Assembly: GCF_000146065.2 (NCBI RefSeq)
Contig: NC_020449.1
Coordinates: 1,960,654-2,024,653 of the forward strand
DNA from: Candidatus Cloacimonas acidaminovorans str. Evry
GTDB lineage: Bacteria > Cloacimonadota > Cloacimonadia > Cloacimonadales > Cloacimonadaceae
DNA length: 64,000 bases
Direction of reading: 5' to 3'
Each line of letters opens with the position of its first letter. Position 1 is the stretch's first letter. The position numbers and the translations under genes are program-made. Below the pieces are notes generated by a model that made no database searches, was not told the origin of the DNA, and saw only the letters and a list, made by a program, of their open reading frames with translations. Positions 2,030-55,831 of this stretch are shown here, one piece after another.

Positions 2030-3412
2030 GTGAAAAAAGTTCTTCTCCTATCCATAAACAGCAGCTGGAGTCAATCCAATCCTGCAATATACTACTTACG
2101 GGAAATGATTGGGGATTTGCCCTATGATGTTATTCTCAAGGAATGGACATTAAAAGACCGGCTTTTGGATGTGCTGTTTGAAATCTATCGCCAAAAGGCA
2201 GAGGTAATTTGTTTTTCTGCTTACATTTGGAACCGTCTTTATTTGCAGGAATTGATTCCAGAAGTTATCAAGTTATTGCCTGAAGCAGTTATTGTAATTG
2301 GCGGTCCTGAAGCGGAAAGTTTATCCTTCCTGAAAAGAAAAGGGCTTTATATTGTCCAAGGTGCTGGTGAAGGAAAATTTCGCTTTCTGGCAGAACACGA
2401 TTTTTCTGCTAATGATGAAGACCTTTCTCGGGCTAAACATATTCCCTTGAAAGATATTCCTTTCCCTTACAGAGAAAGCGATGGGGATACTTTAAAAGGC
2501 AAATTGCTATATTATGAAACATTTAGGGGCTGCCCTTTTGCCTGCATTTATTGTCTTTCGGCAAATGATAAACGCTCCGAACTTCGCTATCAGCCAAATA
2601 ACCAAAAAGATATGCAATGCCTGAATAAGGAATTGGAGACCCTGATTTCTTTTCAGCCAAGAACTATAAAATTCGTAGACCGCAGTTTTAATCTCCATAA
2701 ACAGCTGGCACACTATATTTGGAAGTTCTTTATGGAACAAAATTGCCCGTGCGATGTCCATTTTGAAATCTACCCCGATTTGTTGGAAGAAGACGATATT
2801 GCTTTACTGGAAAAAGCACCGGAAAATAGAATCCGTTGGGAAATTGGTATTCAGACAATAAACTCGGAAGTAGCTTTGAATTGTGGCAGAAAGTCCAATT
2901 GGGAAAAGACAAAATGGGTTTTACAGGAACTGAAAAAACGCACTAAAGTACACATCCACACTGACTTGCTTGCCGGTTTGCCCGGGGAAAATTATGCTTC
3001 CGTATTAAATGGCTTAAATGAGGTCTGCGCTATTCTTCCGGATGCTGTTCAACTTGGCATTTTAAAAATTTTACCCGATACCCCGATGCAGAAAATTGCC
3101 TCGGAATTAAATTATAAATGGCTCAGCCAACCACCCTATCAATGTCTTTCTTCCGATGCCCTTTCTTTTGAGGAAATACAGCAATTGGAAAATTTTGCCA
3201 AGCTCTTAAACCTGTATTGGAATAAAGAAGAATACAAAAGTATGTGGCAGGAAATGCTACAAAAACACTCTGCTACAGATATTCTAACAGCTCTTCAACA
3301 AAAACACCAAGAACTTGGCTATGAATTGCATTCTCTATCCAAAGCTAAAAGAAATGCTGTTATGGCTGATATCTATGTAGCCGGAAGACACCGTTCCTCC
3401 GCAAAAAAGTAG
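2030..3412 (+). CDS. Radical SAM protein with B12-binding-type N-terminal domain
   Basis: 460-residue protein. Residues 1-120 look like a cobalamin-binding-type Rossmann domain (KVLLLSINSSWSQSNPAIYYL, then VICFSAYIW and VIGGPEA), as in many B12-dependent radical SAM enzymes. The radical SAM core follows, with the [4Fe-4S]-binding CxxxCxxC motif at C168, C172 and C175 (GCPFACIYC). The C-terminal third resembles the tail of the DUF4080-type radical SAM group. The start is GTG at 2030 with AAGGAAAAG upstream. Substrate is unknown; family members are often methyltransferases or anaerobic tailoring enzymes. The N-terminal domain lacks an obvious DxHxxG cobalamin motif, so actual B12 binding is uncertain. 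Confidence 0.8.
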   Translation: MKKVLLLSINSSWSQSNPAIYYLREMIGDLPYDVILKEWTLKDRLLDVLFEIYRQKAEVICFSAYIWNRLYLQELIPEVIKLLPEAVIVIGGPEAESLSFLKRKGLYIVQGAGEGKFRFLAEHDFSANDEDLSRAKHIPLKDIPFPYRESDGDTLKGKLLYYETFRGCPFACIYCLSANDKRSELRYQPNNQKDMQCLNKELETLISFQPRTIKFVDRSFNLHKQLAHYIWKFFMEQNCPCDVHFEIYPDLLEEDDIALLEKAPENRIRWEIGIQTINSEVALNCGRKSNWEKTKWVLQELKKRTKVHIHTDLLAGLPGENYASVLNGLNEVCAILPDAVQLGILKILPDTPMQKIASELNYKWLSQPPYQCLSSDALSFEEIQQLENFAKLLNLYWNKEEYKSMWQEMLQKHSATDILTALQQKHQELGYELHSLSKAKRNAVMADIYVAGRHRSSAKK

Positions 3413-3474
3413 AAAGGTAGAAAGGTGAAAAAGTGGAAAAGTGGAAAAGTGGAAAGGTGAAACAAGGAGATAAT
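3409..3474 (+). repeat. Purine-rich 8-bp unit array ending in GTGAAACAAGGAGATAAT
   Basis: Right after the radical SAM gene, units of about 8 bp (GTAGAAAG, GTGAAAAA, GTGGAAAA, GTGGAAAG) repeat about seven times and finish with GTGAAAC-AAGGAGATAAT. The same terminal sequence closes the array at 52135-52187, and a close version (GTGAAACAAGGGG on the minus strand) closes the array at 52859-52951. Confidence 0.75.
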
Positions 3475-42882: not shown

Positions 42883-43345
42883 AAAAGCCCGGAGGGCGAC
42901 ACAATCATAGCGACGGTGGCGTAAGCCCCTCATAAAAGATAAATAGGTCTGTGATGAACAAGATAAAAAAGATTTATGGGATTTTAAAAAACAATATTTG
43001 CAAAAAAGCCCGGAGGGCGACACAATGATAGCGATGGTGGCGTAAGCCCCTCGAAAAATGTAAGCCCCGACTTCTTTTTTCTTTTCATCTTCCCATTTTC
43101 CAAAAGCCCCAAAGGGCGACACAAGGATAGCGATGGTGGCGTAAGCCCCTCGAAAAATGTAAGCCCCGACTTCTTTTCTTTTTTCTCTTTCCCGCTAAAA
43201 GAAAGCCCCAAAGGGCGACACAATCATAGCGATGGTGGCGTAAGCCCCTCGAAAAAAAGATTGAATAACCCTAAGCTCTCTGCCCTCTGCCCTCTGCAAA
43301 AAAAGCCCAAAGGGCGACACAATCATAGCTACGGTCTTTTAGTGC
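42883..43345 (+). repeat. Five-copy GGGCGACACAATCATAGCG repeat array
   Basis: Copies start at about 42883, 43004, 43102, 43202 and 43299. The conserved core reads AAAAGCCC-(GG/CA)A-GGGCGACACAATCATAGCGA-(C/T)GGTGGCGTAAGCCCCTC. GCCC and GGGC can form a small hairpin, and AGGGC can alternatively pair with GCCCCT at the 3' end. Spacing is irregular (98-121 bp), and copies 2-4 share an extra TGTAAGCCCCGACTTCTTTT tail. The fifth copy is cut off after the core. Reading frames through it are repeat artefacts. Confidence 0.88.
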
Positions 43346-50145: not shown

Positions 50146-52131
50146 ATGGATAAACATAGTTGCGTAGAAATGACCGCTATGCATTATGAACTAGACCGTC
50201 CCAAAGCGGAAAATCCTGTTAAAGTTCAGGATTTAACTTTTCGGGATGGACATCAGTCACTTTTTGCCACGCGCGGCAGAACTGAAGATATGCTTAATGT
50301 GGCAGAACTGATGGATCAAGTTGGCTTTTACTCTATGGAAATTTGGGGTGGAGCAACTTTTGACACTATGCATCGCTACTTGGGAGAAGACCCCTGGGAA
50401 AGAATTCGGGTGCTGAAAAAACATCTCACTAAAACACCCCTCTCAATGTTGTTACGAGGACAAAATCTGGTTGGCTATCAAAATTATGCGGATGATGTGG
50501 TGGAAGCATTTGTGCAACGCTGTTGTGATAACGGTATTGATATTTTTCGGGTGTTTGATGCCCTAAACGATTTCCGCAATTTTATAACCGCCGTTAAAAT
50601 CATCAAGAAAAACAACAAGCTCTTTGAGGGTGCTATTTGTTTTTCTTTAACTGAACAACGAATGGGTGGTGATATTTATAATATTGAGTATTATGTTGCT
50701 AAAGCCAAACAGCTGGAAGAAATGGGTGCCGATACAATTTGCATTAAAGATATGGCTGGCTTAATTGCTCCTTACGATGCTTACGAACTTATTAAGGCAC
50801 TGAAGGAAAATGTGAAAGTGCCTGTTCATTTGCATACCCATTTTACTTCTGGAATGGGTGATTTGGCTTTATTTAAGGCAATTGAAGCAGGCGTTGATAT
50901 TATAGATACTTGTGTAGCTCCTTATGCTTACAGAACTTCCCATCCAGCAATTGAACCACTGGTAATTTCCCTTTTGGGAACCAATCGCGATACCGGTTTT
51001 GACATTAAGCTACTAGACAAAATCGGCAAGGAAATGGAGAAAGACATTCCCAAGTATCTGGAATTTGCTGATACTACAAAATTCTCTATAATTGATACCG
51101 ATGTAATTATTCATCAGACCCCGGGCGGAATGCTTTCCAACCTGGTAAATCAATTACGCCAAATGGATGCTTTGGATAAGCTGGAAGATGTGTTTAAAGA
51201 AATCCCCAAAGTGAGAAAAGACCTGGGTCAAATTCCTTTAGTTACTCCCACCAGTCAAATTGTAGGTATTCAGGCAGTTAATAATGCCTTGTTTGATTCT
51301 TATGAAGGTGAATATTCCCGGATTACGGAACAGGTGAAAGACCTTTGCTATGGTCTATATGGAAAAACTACTCTTCCTATCAATCCGGAAGTGCAGAAAA
51401 AGGCATTAAAAGGTTATCCCAGAGGAGAAACACCAATAACCTGTCGCCCCGGAGATGTTATTCCTCCTGCAATGGAACAAGTCCATAAGGACTGTGAGGG
51501 ATTAGCTAAAAACATTGATGATGAATTAATCGTTGCCCTCTATAACATTACCGGAAAAAGGTTCTTGAGGATTAAATATGGCTTGGAACCAATGCCGGAA
51601 GAAATGAAACCTAAAACCCTAAATGATGTTAAAAAAGAACAAGAACTTATTGCTAAAGCTAAAGCAGGGAAATTGATAGAAAAACCGGAACCGAAAGATA
51701 AACCCCAAGACATGCGTCAGTTTGATGTTTTTGTGGATAATACCTACTACCTGGTAGAGGTTTCGGAAAAAGGAGGAACCCCTAAAATAGTTAATTCGCG
51801 TCCTGCACCTGTTATTTCCGAAACAATTATAAAACCGGCTAATAATCCCAATCCTCAAGTAAAACCTTCTAATCCGGCTCCGGAACCTAAACCTGCTCCT
51901 GTAGTTAATTCCGAAGGCGGTACAAAAATTACCGCTCCGATGCCGGGAATGTTTATCAGATACGAAAAAAAACCTGGTGACCCTGTTAAACAAGGAGAAA
52001 CTGTCCTTGTTCTGGAAGCAATGAAAATGTATAACAATATTCCTTCACCTGTAGATGGAGTGCTTGTGGAAGCACCTTTTACCGGAGGAGCTAATGTTGC
52101 CAAAGGGGATGTGTTAGCATTGATCAAGTGA
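50146..52131 (+). CDS. Transcarboxylase 5S/pyruvate carboxylase B-type protein fused to biotin carrier
   Basis: 661 residues. The HMGL-like carboxyltransferase barrel starts with VQDLTFRDGHQSLFATR, followed by the metal- and biotin-site segments GATFDTMHRYLGEDPW, MLLRGQNLVGYQNYADDVV, CIKDMAGLIAPYDAYEL and the HLHTHFTSGMG metal-binding histidines. A PYC/OAD conserved domain continues to about 475. After a Pro/Lys-rich linker (about 565-590) a biotinyl domain ends the protein, with biotin lysine K627 in LEAMKM, 34 residues before the end as usual. 5S and 1.3S functions, separate in Propionibacterium, are thus fused. AAGGAG precedes the ATG. It works with the carboxyltransferase at 48371; no biotin carboxylase gene is in the window, favouring transcarboxylation over ATP-driven carboxylation. 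Confidence 0.92.
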   Translation: MDKHSCVEMTAMHYELDRPKAENPVKVQDLTFRDGHQSLFATRGRTEDMLNVAELMDQVGFYSMEIWGGATFDTMHRYLGEDPWERIRVLKKHLTKTPLSMLLRGQNLVGYQNYADDVVEAFVQRCCDNGIDIFRVFDALNDFRNFITAVKIIKKNNKLFEGAICFSLTEQRMGGDIYNIEYYVAKAKQLEEMGADTICIKDMAGLIAPYDAYELIKALKENVKVPVHLHTHFTSGMGDLALFKAIEAGVDIIDTCVAPYAYRTSHPAIEPLVISLLGTNRDTGFDIKLLDKIGKEMEKDIPKYLEFADTTKFSIIDTDVIIHQTPGGMLSNLVNQLRQMDALDKLEDVFKEIPKVRKDLGQIPLVTPTSQIVGIQAVNNALFDSYEGEYSRITEQVKDLCYGLYGKTTLPINPEVQKKALKGYPRGETPITCRPGDVIPPAMEQVHKDCEGLAKNIDDELIVALYNITGKRFLRIKYGLEPMPEEMKPKTLNDVKKEQELIAKAKAGKLIEKPEPKDKPQDMRQFDVFVDNTYYLVEVSEKGGTPKIVNSRPAPVISETIIKPANNPNPQVKPSNPAPEPKPAPVVNSEGGTKITAPMPGMFIRYEKKPGDPVKQGETVLVLEAMKMYNNIPSPVDGVLVEAPFTGGANVAKGDVLALIK

Positions 52132-52134
52132 ATG

Positions 52135-52187
52135 GTGAAAAGTGAACAGTGAAAGGTGAACAGTGAAAAGTGAAACAAGGAGATAAT
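52135..52187 (+). repeat. Purine 7-bp unit array, left bracket of the S23 gene
   Basis: Six units of 7 bp (GTGAAAA, GTGAACA, GTGAAAG, GTGAACA, GTGAAAA, GTGAAAC) end in AAGGAGATAAT. It begins three bases after the transcarboxylase stop codon. The array at 52859-52951 has the same kind of unit and the same GTGAAACAAGG end, but on the other strand. Confidence 0.75.
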
Positions 52188-52268
52188 TTGAGTTGCAAAC
52201 CTGTTTTGGGTAACCGGAGGTCGCTTTTCCTCCGCATTCAATATGATTTTTTGAATGAAGTTTTTCTT

Positions 52269-52293
52269 GTCATTCCTGCGAAAACAGGAATCC
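52269..52293 (+). repeat. GTCATTCCTGCG...CAGGAATCC hairpin, copy 1
   Basis: GTCATTCCTGCGAAAACAGGAATCC forms a stem TTCCTG/CAGGAA. The sequence type (GTCATTCCTGCG ... CAGGAATCC) is a short hairpin repeat found in many bacteria. A better-preserved inverted copy is at 56701-56724. The rest of the 308-bp gap between the transcarboxylase and the S23 gene shows no gene; GTGAAAGGAGATAAAAGTG at about 52355 is a degenerate purine-array fragment. Confidence 0.65.
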
Positions 52294-52439
52294 AAGTTAA
52301 TTTTGAAAATATAATTACATTTCCAAATTAGAATCTGCATTGGAGTGAAAGGAGATAAAAGTGAAACAGGAACTTAGTTTAAGTTGCAATGCAATTTTTA
52401 CTTATCTGAGGATATTAACCCTCTCCAAAGGCAGGTGTT

Positions 52440-52811
52440 GTGTATAACTATCGGGATATGCAGGTTTGGAAAGTGAGTATGCAACTATTTGTGGATATTC
52501 ATAAAAGGACATTGGAATTTCCCAAGTTTGAACAATATGAATTAGCTGCTCATTTAAGAAGAACGGCTCTTTCCATACCTTCCAATATTTCGGAAGGAGC
52601 AGGTAGAAAATCCACCCTTGATTTTCTCCGGTTTTTAGATATAGCTAATGGTTCACTATCAGAATTTGAGACCCAACTGGAAGCTGCATTTATGCTTGGC
52701 TATTTACCTGAATATAATGATTATCTTAAAAGGATAGCTCATTTGAGAAGTTTAATTTCAGGTTTAGTTCGTTCTTTAACCCAAAAAATTAAATCAGCAG
52801 ATATAAAGTGA
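52440..52811 (+). CDS. Four-helix-bundle protein (S23/23S rRNA intervening-sequence family)
   Basis: 123 residues. YNYRDMQVWKVSMQLFVDIHKRT is the family start, and PKFEQYELAAHLRRTALSIPSNISEGAGR followed by LDFLRFLDIANGSLSEFETQLEAAFMLGYL is diagnostic. The start is GTG at 52440 because the N-terminal 'YNYRDMQVW' matches the family; the first ATG is six codons later. S23 proteins form homopentamers and were first seen in 23S rRNA intervening sequences, but many are free-standing. No rRNA is near. The gene is bracketed by inverted purine arrays. Its function is unknown; nucleic acid binding is assumed. Confidence 0.9.
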   Translation: MYNYRDMQVWKVSMQLFVDIHKRTLEFPKFEQYELAAHLRRTALSIPSNISEGAGRKSTLDFLRFLDIANGSLSEFETQLEAAFMLGYLPEYNDYLKRIAHLRSLISGLVRSLTQKIKSADIK

Positions 52812-52858
52812 AACCCTCAACCCCTACATATCAGATGAACTTTCATTTACTATTTACA

Positions 52859-52951
52859 CCCCTTGTTTCACCTTTCCACTTTTCCACTTTTTTCCACCTT
52901 TCCACTTTTCCACTTTTTTCCACTTTTCCACTTTTTTCCACCTTTCCACTC
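52859..52951 (-). repeat. Purine unit array (minus strand), right bracket of the S23 gene
   Basis: On the plus strand this is a pyrimidine tract (CCCCTTGTTTCACC, then TTTCCACTTTTCCAC and TTTTTTCCACC repeated). On the minus strand it reads GTGGAAAA-type units of 8-11 bp ending in GTGAAACAAGGGG. It mirrors the array at 52135-52187 around the S23 gene. It ends eight bases before the ribosome-binding site of pyrR. Confidence 0.75.
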
Positions 52952-52965
52952 TTTAAGGAGGTAAA

Positions 52966-53502
52966 ATGCTCGTTAAAAGCCAAATAATGGACAAAGACCA
53001 AATGGAGCGTTCTCTGCAGAGGATGGCTCATGAAATTATTGAACAAAACCGCGGTTTGGAAAAAATCCGTCTGGTTGGCATTCGTTCCCGGGGAGTTCCT
53101 TTAGCAGAACGTCTTTCCAGTTATTTAAAACTTATATCCAATCAGGAAGTTCCGGTTGGCATTTTGGATATAACTTTATATCGTGATGATCTTTCTACCA
53201 TTAGTCATCAGCCGGTTATAAAGGGTTCCGCTATTGATTTTGATATTGAGGATGCGGTTGTAGTTCTTGTTGATGATGTTCTTTATACGGGAAGAACGGT
53301 TCGTGCTGCTATTGATGCTTTAATGGATTTTGGCAGACCGAAACAGATTCAGCTGGCGGTTTTAATTGATCGGGGTCATCGGGAACTGCCTATTAAAGCT
53401 GATTATGTAGGCAAAAATGTCCCTACTTCCAAAGAAGAAATAATTAAGGTCTCACTGGAAGAAACAGATGGCGAAGATAGCGTCAAAATCGTTTTGGTAT
53501 AA
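52966..53502 (+). CDS. pyrR: PyrR bifunctional regulator/uracil phosphoribosyltransferase
   Basis: 178-residue phosphoribosyltransferase of the PyrR family. The N-terminus ([21 protein letters not shown]) and '[14 protein letters not shown]' are PyrR-like, TLYRDDL is family-specific, and the PRPP-binding loop is [14 protein letters not shown] (about 98-111). PyrR binds pyrimidine-operon RNA when UMP is high and has weak UPRT activity. AAGGAGG precedes the ATG. No classic PyrR anti-antiterminator stem was recognised upstream, where the pyrimidine tract lies, so an RNA-attenuation role here is unconfirmed. Confidence 0.92.
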
Positions 53503-54505: not shown

Positions 54506-55741
54506 ATGAAAAAGATTTTTATCCTTACACTGCTGATTTCCGTAGCATTCTGTTTTGCCTTTCAAGTTGATACCTTTGGACCTACTGCAGACGATTTTTC
54601 TTGTGCCAATTTAGACCAGGTGCCGGCAAGTTTTGGAATTCAGATAGCTAATCAGAAAAAACTTTGCCTCTGGGAAAATGGTGTCTGGAATAGTTATTCC
54701 TATTTGGGTTTAACTATTAAAGGTACTTATATGCTAAATGCGGACACGATGTTGGTTGCTATGGGAGATAATTCTTACAGCGATGGTATTTATAACTTTG
54801 ATATTAACACGCATAACTGGCAACTGAATGATTGGTTTATATTACCTAATTTTGTAAAGTATAATCCCCATAACCAATTATATTATGTGGGAGAACGGGA
54901 TGGTTTGTTTTATTCGGCGAATGGACATAACTGGACCAGGATAACATCCCTCGGTTCAAATAAATGCAATTCTATTGCCTGGTATGATAGCAACATCATA
55001 ACTAATAATGGTCAGATGGTTTATTATTCCAATAATAACGGACTTAACTGGCAGCAATCATCCATTAGCAATTTAAGTAGTTTCAGGTTTGACAATAATG
55101 GCATTTTATATGCTATTATGGATGTAGGAAGTGATTCGGACGGACTTTGGCGTTCTAATGATTTTGGTGCAAATTGGACAAATATCCTCTATACTTCAGC
55201 TCTTTCTTGCTTAGGACCAATTTATAATAATAATGTAACCCTTGGTTGGAGAGAAAGTTACGCAGATAGTTGCTTTGTCGGTATGCTGAATTCTTCAGGG
55301 GAGGTAACCTTTTTTAATCATCCTCTACTTAATGCACCGGTTAAGCAGATAGATATTTTTCCCTATATCAATACCCCTTCTTTTTATGTTTTGAACTCCG
55401 GGGGTTGTTTCTTTGTGACCGGTTTTCTGGTAGGAATTGATGACCCCGTTATTCCTCAAATACCACAAGCAAAAATATCTACCTATCCTAATCCAGCACT
55501 ATCTTATGCTGATATTTATTTAAGTAAAGTTAGTCCTGAACCCTGCAAATTAACTATTTATAACCTCAAAGGTCAAAAAGTAAGGAATTTGGACCTTGCA
55601 GAGACATTGAAAGAGCAAACTTTATCCTGGGATTTGAAAAATAATAACGGTTTTAAAGTATCTGCTGGAATTTATTTTCTCGTGTTGCAGGATTCCAAAG
55701 GAAATTGCCTGGCAAAAACGAAGTTGGCGGTAATTAAATAA
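54506..55741 (+). CDS. Secreted repeat (BNR/beta-propeller-like) protein with C-terminal sorting domain
   Basis: 411 residues with a signal peptide (KKIFILTLLISVAFCFA). Residues 50-320 contain recurring 'YYSNNNGLNW', 'WRSNDFGANW', 'FYSANGHNW' segments, the BNR/Asp-box pattern of sialidase- and Ycf48-like beta-propellers. The end (STYPNPALSYADIYL ... IYNLKGQKVRNL ... SAGIYFLVL) is a FlgD-like sorting domain. A strong ribosome-binding site (GAGGAGGAG) precedes the ATG. No catalytic residues were identified; it may be a surface adhesin or matrix protein. It is followed by a 25-bp inverted repeat. Confidence 0.72.
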   Translation: MKKIFILTLLISVAFCFAFQVDTFGPTADDFSCANLDQVPASFGIQIANQKKLCLWENGVWNSYSYLGLTIKGTYMLNADTMLVAMGDNSYSDGIYNFDINTHNWQLNDWFILPNFVKYNPHNQLYYVGERDGLFYSANGHNWTRITSLGSNKCNSIAWYDSNIITNNGQMVYYSNNNGLNWQQSSISNLSSFRFDNNGILYAIMDVGSDSDGLWRSNDFGANWTNILYTSALSCLGPIYNNNVTLGWRESYADSCFVGMLNSSGEVTFFNHPLLNAPVKQIDIFPYINTPSFYVLNSGGCFFVTGFLVGIDDPVIPQIPQAKISTYPNPALSYADIYLSKVSPEPCKLTIYNLKGQKVRNLDLAETLKEQTLSWDLKNNNGFKVSAGIYFLVLQDSKGNCLAKTKLAVIK

Positions 55742-55753
55742 ATACAGGTTTAG

Positions 55754-55828
55754 AAGGTTGAGAGGGTTGAGAGGGTTTAGATTTCTTAAAAGCTCAACCG
55801 TATAAACCTTCTCAACCCTCTCAACCTT
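55754..55828. repeat. 25-bp near-perfect inverted repeat between convergent genes
   Basis: AAGGTTGAGAGGGTTGAGA-GGGTTT (55754-55778) and its reverse complement at 55804-55828 match at 24 of 25 bases, with a 25-nt loop. The arms are themselves short tandem repeats of TTGAGAGGG. The position suggests a bidirectional terminator, but there is no U-tract and the arms recur in fragments elsewhere (for example near 42790 and 45435). Confidence 0.8.
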
Positions 55829-55831
55829 ATT

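Follow-up and report, generated by a model that had tools for sequence, protein, structure and literature searches.

The first structures of S23-family proteins were solved in 2006, yet to our knowledge the proteins have no assigned role, and we know of no catalytic or enzymatic domain in the family. One described genetic setting of theirs is the rRNA intervening sequence of Leptospira and Coxiella, an inverted-repeat-bounded unit with an S23-family open reading frame inside. The Coxiella element forms a 28-bp stem that is cut by RNase III and whose loop carries S23; three tandem GACAGAT heptamers sit just upstream of the S23 start, and the origin of the element was called unclear, mobility having been proposed earlier by others (PMC4990558). 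G-rich, intergenic and dispersed heptamer arrays are known as the STRR repeats of cyanobacteria and as the GGGAATC and GGGGAYT arrays of Xanthomonas and Nostoc, respectively. Convergent GGGAATC pairs number 70-75 per Xanthomonas genome, and such arrays were generally not found with mobile elements; their functional role was left to be elucidated (PMC4692102). For the TAACTGA arrays of Beggiatoaceae, a mobile element or a repeat-binding protein was suggested (PMC4679880). PF05635, the S23 profile, resembles the Avd protein of diversity-generating retroelements (DGRs), with remote sequence kinship (PMC10053308).

The window analysed here is a stretch of 64,000 nucleotides, positions 1960654-2024653 of the 2,246,820-bp single-contig genome of Candidatus Cloacimonas acidaminovorans str. 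Evry. An array, an S23 gene and an inverted array form one block (52132-52951; Table 1). As the first-pass annotation had described, the two arrays point inward and share the inner end GTGAAACAAGG, which in the right array is read from the minus strand at 52861-52871; the G-rich strand of the left array is oriented inward. The cassette occupies the entire intergenic gap: its left array directly abuts the upstream gene's stop codon, a boundary placed from congeners with an empty site, and its right array stops a few bases short of the AAGGAGG ribosome-binding-type sequence of pyrR. Two other dispersed repeats lie in the left spacer, GTAACCGGAGG..CCTCCGC at about 52208-52240 and GTCATTCCTGCGAAAACAGGAATCC at about 52266-52292.

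Table 1. Features of the S23 cassette, its flanks and related arrays, in window coordinates
Feature	Position	Strand	Description
Solo (one-armed) array	3405..3474	+	unit family of the window cassette, without S23
Left target flank: transcarboxylase / oxaloacetate decarboxylase-type subunit	50146..52131	+	PYC_OADA + biotinyl domain
Left terminal array	52132..52187	+	tandem units of GTGAAAAG/GTGAACAG type, 7-8 bp, inner end GTGAAACAAGGAGATAAT
Inner spacer, left	52188..52439	.	between left array and S23 gene
S23 / four helix bundle gene, 123 aa	52440..52811	+	PF05635, TIGR02436
Inner spacer, right	52812..52858	.	S23 stop to right array
Right terminal array	52859..52951	-	inverted copy of left unit family (GTGGAAAAG/GTGGAAAGG)
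Right target flank: pyrR	52966..53502	+	
Gene-less hairpin of GGTTGAGAG-type units	55741..55831	.	4 copies, 11-bp loop, 4 inverted copies

Counting exact and one-mismatch copies, GTGAAACAAGG occurs six times in the window against 1.15 expected, and 0 of 100 shuffles matched this. Local alignment of the left flank with the reverse-complemented right flank scores 20; shuffles average 11.7, and 3 of 1000 reach that score. Among the 42 open reading frames of the window, the S23 gene has the best-matching inverted flanks. The cassette RNA is predicted to fold better than shuffles (z -3.8), with the arms forming the outer stem. Comparisons with Rfam and with PADLOC returned no match. The previously reported solo array is indeed present, and the 18 bases of its inner end are identical to those of the left array. 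In the relative G002, two inverted copies of a GTCATTCCTGCGAAAACAGGAATCC-like repeat stand between S23 and the right array; it looks as if cassettes collect other repeats (the GTCATTCCTGCGAAAACAGGAATCC type in the window, L147 and G002). A dispersed repeat of about 99 bp (AAAGCCC..GGGCGAYACAATGATAGCGATGGTGGCGTAAGCCCCTCG) occurs in 2.6 copies at 43002-43256 of the window and also adjoins numerous solo GGTTGAGAG arrays in the rest of the genome.

The enclosed gene, originally read as an S23-family, four-helix-bundle gene, proved to be a clear PF05635 member (107.5 bits, cut-off 33.8; E 5e-31) that also matches TIGR02436 (102.3 bits, cut-off 24). In the profile search PF05635 was its only domain, with no transposase or Y1/HUH domain found. 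The AlphaFold2 model (pLDDT 95.8) shows the four-helix bundle fold and in Foldseek matches 2GSC, the solved S23 structure from Xanthomonas, at TM 0.87. The model also matches Avd of the Bordetella phage DGR (4DWL; TM 0.76, probability 1.0) and DGR ribonucleoprotein chains. Against the DGR-Avd model NF033474, the window S23 gave no match at E 0.001, and the S23 proteins of L158 and L151 reached 35.7 and 28.2 with a cut-off of 80. S23 is under purifying selection: dN/dS is 0.095 between the window gene and the G003 copy and 0.10-0.12 among plasmid copies. We reject a passenger or decayed gene for intact copies on these values of about 0.1. Eight polar residues (E31, S45, N49, E52, S72, E75, T78 and Q79) are invariant in 21 S23 sequences, a set in which residues within the retrieval peptides were partly selected by the search. 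S23 genes were also looked for in phages, and none was found there.

A profile search of the genome yielded six PF05635 matches, five of them above the curated cut-off. Four of these five lie between inverted tandem arrays, each with its own repeat unit: GTGGAAAAG at the window locus (2013105), GAGGTCGA at 1662672, GGTTGAGAG at 767716 and GTGCGGGAGTTCAAA at 752795. At the fifth gene (423221), one side carries an array. Every S23 gene comes with a unit of its own, and the window cassette is one case of a general arrangement. The GGTTGAGAG unit that brackets the gene at 767716 is also that of the gene-less hairpin downstream of pyrR (Table 1). Dimers of GGTTGAGAG match the genome 335 times, mostly as one-armed arrays, against 0 for a reversed-pattern control; this control is unusable for GTGGAAAAG, because reversing that pattern picks up the same arrays again. 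S23-free inverted GTGRAAAG pairs occur at genome positions 915699-916443, 1400689-1400999 and 2035171-2035470.

Listing all GTGAAACAAGG ends in the genome, as the first-pass annotation had proposed, gave 11 exact copies. Most of them end an array; only two flank S23, both at the window locus, and the other nine lie away from S23. GTGAAACAAGG is thus not a universal end, since only the window unit family carries it. The proposed preference of arrays for S23 holds very strongly for inward-facing pairs (see below) and fails for single GTGAAACAAGG ends.

Some individual loci merit description. In L158 (3699-4121), the S23 coding sequence extends into the right array, which supplies the C-terminal tail of the protein (PSQPSQPSQPSQ), since a unit of 9 bp preserves the frame. 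Adjoining the S23 gene at 767716 is a DegT-type aminotransferase open reading frame (L158:4123-5340; genome 768122-769339) with an in-frame GGTTGAGAG hairpin, and the congeners G001 and G006 carry different repeats at the matching loop. At L157 (genome 1390132-1391257), the genome's only reverse transcriptase has a weak S23/Avd-like protein as its neighbour; this pair is possibly a DGR.

To describe the arrangement across phyla, we compared 80 S23 loci from Cloacimonadota, Bacteroidota, Nitrospirota, Acidobacteriota, Omnitrophota, Pseudomonadota, candidate-phylum and other genomes. When the upstream flank was aligned to the reverse complement of the downstream one, the median score was 19 at S23 loci, 12 at 726 control open reading frames on the same contigs and 11 in cross-locus flank comparisons. 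The alignment reached the control 95th percentile in 52 of 78 S23 loci; about one third fell below it and by this measure have no arms. Arm k-mers matched at 26 within loci versus 11 between loci (permutation p 5e-5, in a test that cannot fully separate relatedness from arm co-evolution). Strong arms, built from many different units, were present in 19 of 25 further loci from Cloacimonadaceae and the genome itself. Tandem units measure 7-9 bp overall, mostly 7 or 8. The G-rich strand faces inward in 42 of 43 strong-arm loci versus 10 of 19 control pairs. In short, the two arrays of one cassette match each other, the unit differs between cassettes, and the G-rich strand points inward. Both neighbours are co-directional at 59 of 75 loci versus 54.6% of control triplets; the cassette is antisense to both at five of the 75, and so is the one between nrdB and nrdA (L149).

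We also ran a blind scan of 1.9 Mb for array pairs 300-800 bp apart, located without reference to genes. It returned 56 inward-facing pairs against three outward-facing ones. The inward pairs define 54 intervals, 51 of which hold an S23 gene. The S23 genes of our retrieval account for 37 intervals, and the profile search found S23 in 14 of the other 17: two are retrieved genes that coordinate rounding had hidden, two had been identified before, and ten are previously unused paralogs, two of them weak (E 4e-6). The remaining three intervals have no S23 gene. Inward array pairs thus predict S23 genes, and the blind scan is usable as a gene finder. Array density did not differ significantly between S23-positive genomes (5.1 per 100 kb) and S23-negative ones (1.8 per 100 kb; p 0.17).

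Most of eight Nostocales plasmid S23 genes are bracketed by heptamers (GGGAGTA, GGGAACA, GGTGACA, GGGTGTA, GGGAAAA); L150 shows little beyond short array traces. On plasmid pANA02 of Anabaena sp. 90 (L151), cas6 and cas4 of a type I-D cas operon are separated by an S23 cassette whose GGTGACA/GGGAACA arrays are very long. In Bacteroidota, S23 recurs with drifting units between fadJ-like and thiolase genes (L022, L032, L033, L058, L064, L069, L072, L074, L080, L085, L090, L092, L093, L097), and here too arms match better within than between loci (p 0.0017). These fadJ|fadI sites probably reflect long vertical inheritance.

The first reading of the locus as a mobile cassette with inverted ends is supported by filled and empty sites in the genus and by exact filled/empty pairs for related cassettes on Nostocales plasmids. 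In the comparison suggested at the outset, some relatives in the genus proved to carry the insert between oadA/pycB and pyrR and others to lack it. The site is empty in the congeners G001 and G004, where only a few tens of bases separate the upstream stop from the pyrR start, and holds a full cassette in G000, G002 and G003. G008 keeps both arrays with S23 cut to about 18 codons; G005 and G006 carry inverted arrays without S23, in G005 with a different unit. Among Nostocales plasmids, Trichormus variabilis plasmid C and Scytonema NIES-4073 are filled, and those of Nostoc linckia NIES-25, Aulosira NIES-50 and Fremyella NIES-3275 are empty, with flanks 98-99% identical. Alignment resolves the 428-bp insert into a 423-bp element (L155), which has a 31/38 terminal inverted repeat from its first base, and a 5-bp repeat, GTAAT. 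The arrays themselves serve as inverted ends in L153, which has an empty counterpart in pNsp_c, and in L255. The Nostocales cassette also occurs in other surroundings at 78-85% identity. A gene-less 212-bp version splits a 131-codon open reading frame that is intact in two relatives, and sequences related to another gene-less copy occupy 85 places in 41 plasmid records, with gene-less copies also in non-coding plasmid DNA. Cassettes and gene-less versions therefore insert as units bounded by the outer array ends.

The junctions of these insertions vary: we found a 5-bp overlap, a 2-bp overlap, an overlap of 0-1 (or an ambiguous 5), and target losses of about 16 and about 42 bp, with ambiguity at L149 (nrdB|nrdA), L156 (TraM|hypothetical) and L154 (pNsp_c). 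The exact 5-bp duplication belongs to one insertion and was not repeated at other junctions. Insertion is evident and a constant target duplication is not; with target change this variable, no clean transposition chemistry was seen across the insertions compared.

How does this element compare with the described systems? Like an rRNA intervening sequence, the window cassette is an inverted-repeat stem with S23 in the loop. It differs in lying between the PYC_OADA and pyrR genes instead of a 23S rRNA gene, in having tandem arrays of a locus-private unit as arms, in its gene-less dispersed copies, and in the empty sites that reveal insertion. REP/REPIN systems have RAYT, a Y1 HUH transposase, whereas S23 lacks a Y1/HUH domain, and the cassette ends are variable-unit tandem arrays whereas REP ends are a fixed palindrome. 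The likeness lies in a single small gene with inverted short repeats, dispersed gene-less hairpins, solo ends and the lack of a constant target duplication (PMC3116915). Gene-less inverted pairs are dispersed in the genome here too. Insertion sequences with their MITEs share the terminal inverted repeats, the gene-less derivatives and the one 5-bp duplication, and differ by a transposase domain and a constant target duplication, both absent from S23 cassettes. DGR Avd shares its fold with S23 (4DWL), whereas S23 cassettes have no adjacent reverse transcriptase (RT), TR or VR and fall below the Avd family cut-off. By these comparisons, the S23 cassette is not an rRNA intervening sequence, a DGR, a REPIN/RAYT system or a canonical insertion sequence; it works like a REPIN/RAYT or an insertion sequence/MITE pair. 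Units such as GGGAGTA, GGGAACA and GGTGACA, which bracket Nostocales S23 genes, resemble the known heptamer arrays, which in the literature we found are described as repeats of unclear role and without a link to S23.

We consider it likely that the block at 52132-52951 is a copy of a mobile cassette that is recognised as a hairpin and served by S23 together with host or trans-acting enzymes. The two arms would pair as a hairpin in single-stranded DNA or in RNA, and the paired-arm structure, not a fixed sequence, would be recognised, given that units vary freely in sequence. By analogy with Avd, S23 as a pentameric four-helix bundle may bind the arm hairpin and may recruit host enzymes or a trans-acting enzyme for insertion, which would be favoured between co-directional genes. 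Hairpin-primed copying could keep the arms alike, and repeat slippage would allow the unit to drift. In a transcript, a hairpin with S23 in its loop may make the insert tolerable to the host operon, in the manner of rRNA intervening sequences, to which a link is plausible; the co-directional neighbours and the strong RNA fold fit such a stem role. Solo arrays and gene-less hairpins would be decayed or non-autonomous copies. A role of S23 in movement is what we infer by this analogy.

An unlikely alternative is that the arms act at the RNA level only, as a stem in the transcript that has S23 in its loop and is cleaved by RNase III, so that the block would be a free-standing intervening sequence of mRNA whose spread is unrelated. 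The anatomy of rRNA intervening sequences (28-bp stem, RNase III, GACAGAT heptamers; PMC4990558), the co-directional neighbours and the folding of the cassette all speak for it. Against it stand the cassettes antisense to both neighbours, including the one between nrdB and nrdA, and the gene-less copies in non-coding plasmid DNA and at 85 places, which need spread at the DNA level. A role in RNA complements mobility and does not replace it. The thought that S23 lies between two arrays by chance, in a genome rich in dispersed purine arrays, draws on how common solo arrays are and on the two of 11 GTGAAACAAGG ends that flank S23; it has next to no probability, given matched inverted pairs round S23 in many phyla, locus-specific units, the consistent polarity and the blind recovery of S23. 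For the paired arrangement, coincidence is refuted by flank matching, polarity and the blind scan.

Two further readings concern the enzyme. S23 could act as Avd, in partnership with an RT from another part of the genome that writes the hairpin RNA into new sites, as the closeness of the model to Avd and to DGR ribonucleoprotein chains, the variable junctions and the presence of an RT in 26 of 40 S23-positive versus 3 of 10 S23-negative family genomes would allow. We hold this rather improbable: the S23 proteins miss or fall far below the DGR-Avd cut-off, no RT stands beside these cassettes (the only RVT_1 match in the genome, at 1390132, is 623 kb off), and the near-complete S23-positive genomes G011, G022, G045, G019 and G034 lack any RVT_1 match. 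The evidence does not require an RT, because several near-complete S23-positive genomes have none. It is similarly improbable, in our estimate, that the block is a classic, so far unrecognised DDE-type transposon with its enzyme in trans and S23 as a passenger. The exact 5-bp target duplication with terminal inverted repeats and the gene-less, MITE-like copies look the part, but duplication length varies across the other junctions, the ends have no fixed sequence, and S23 sits in nearly every enclosed interval under strong purifying selection, unlike a passenger.

In the open-access literature, which is weak ground for an absence, we found no paper that links S23 genes with tandem arrays. The S23 array cassette appears to be a widespread mobile element of a kind not described before, one that literature outside our search may already hold. 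We are evenly divided on whether S23 genes make up a phylum-spanning class of transposable elements without a known transposase, recognised by a matched array-end hairpin and not by sequence, and the source both of heptamer repeats in cyanobacteria and other bacteria and of S23-bearing rRNA intervening sequences. If true, one mobile cassette would tie together S23 proteins, the origin of rRNA intervening sequences (PMC4990558) and the heptamer arrays of cyanobacteria and Xanthomonas (PMC4692102). If S23 serves movement, a 123-residue helical bundle and array hairpins would make up a transposition route unlike that of known enzymes, and arrays that match left to right with freely varying units would be a new design of element end.
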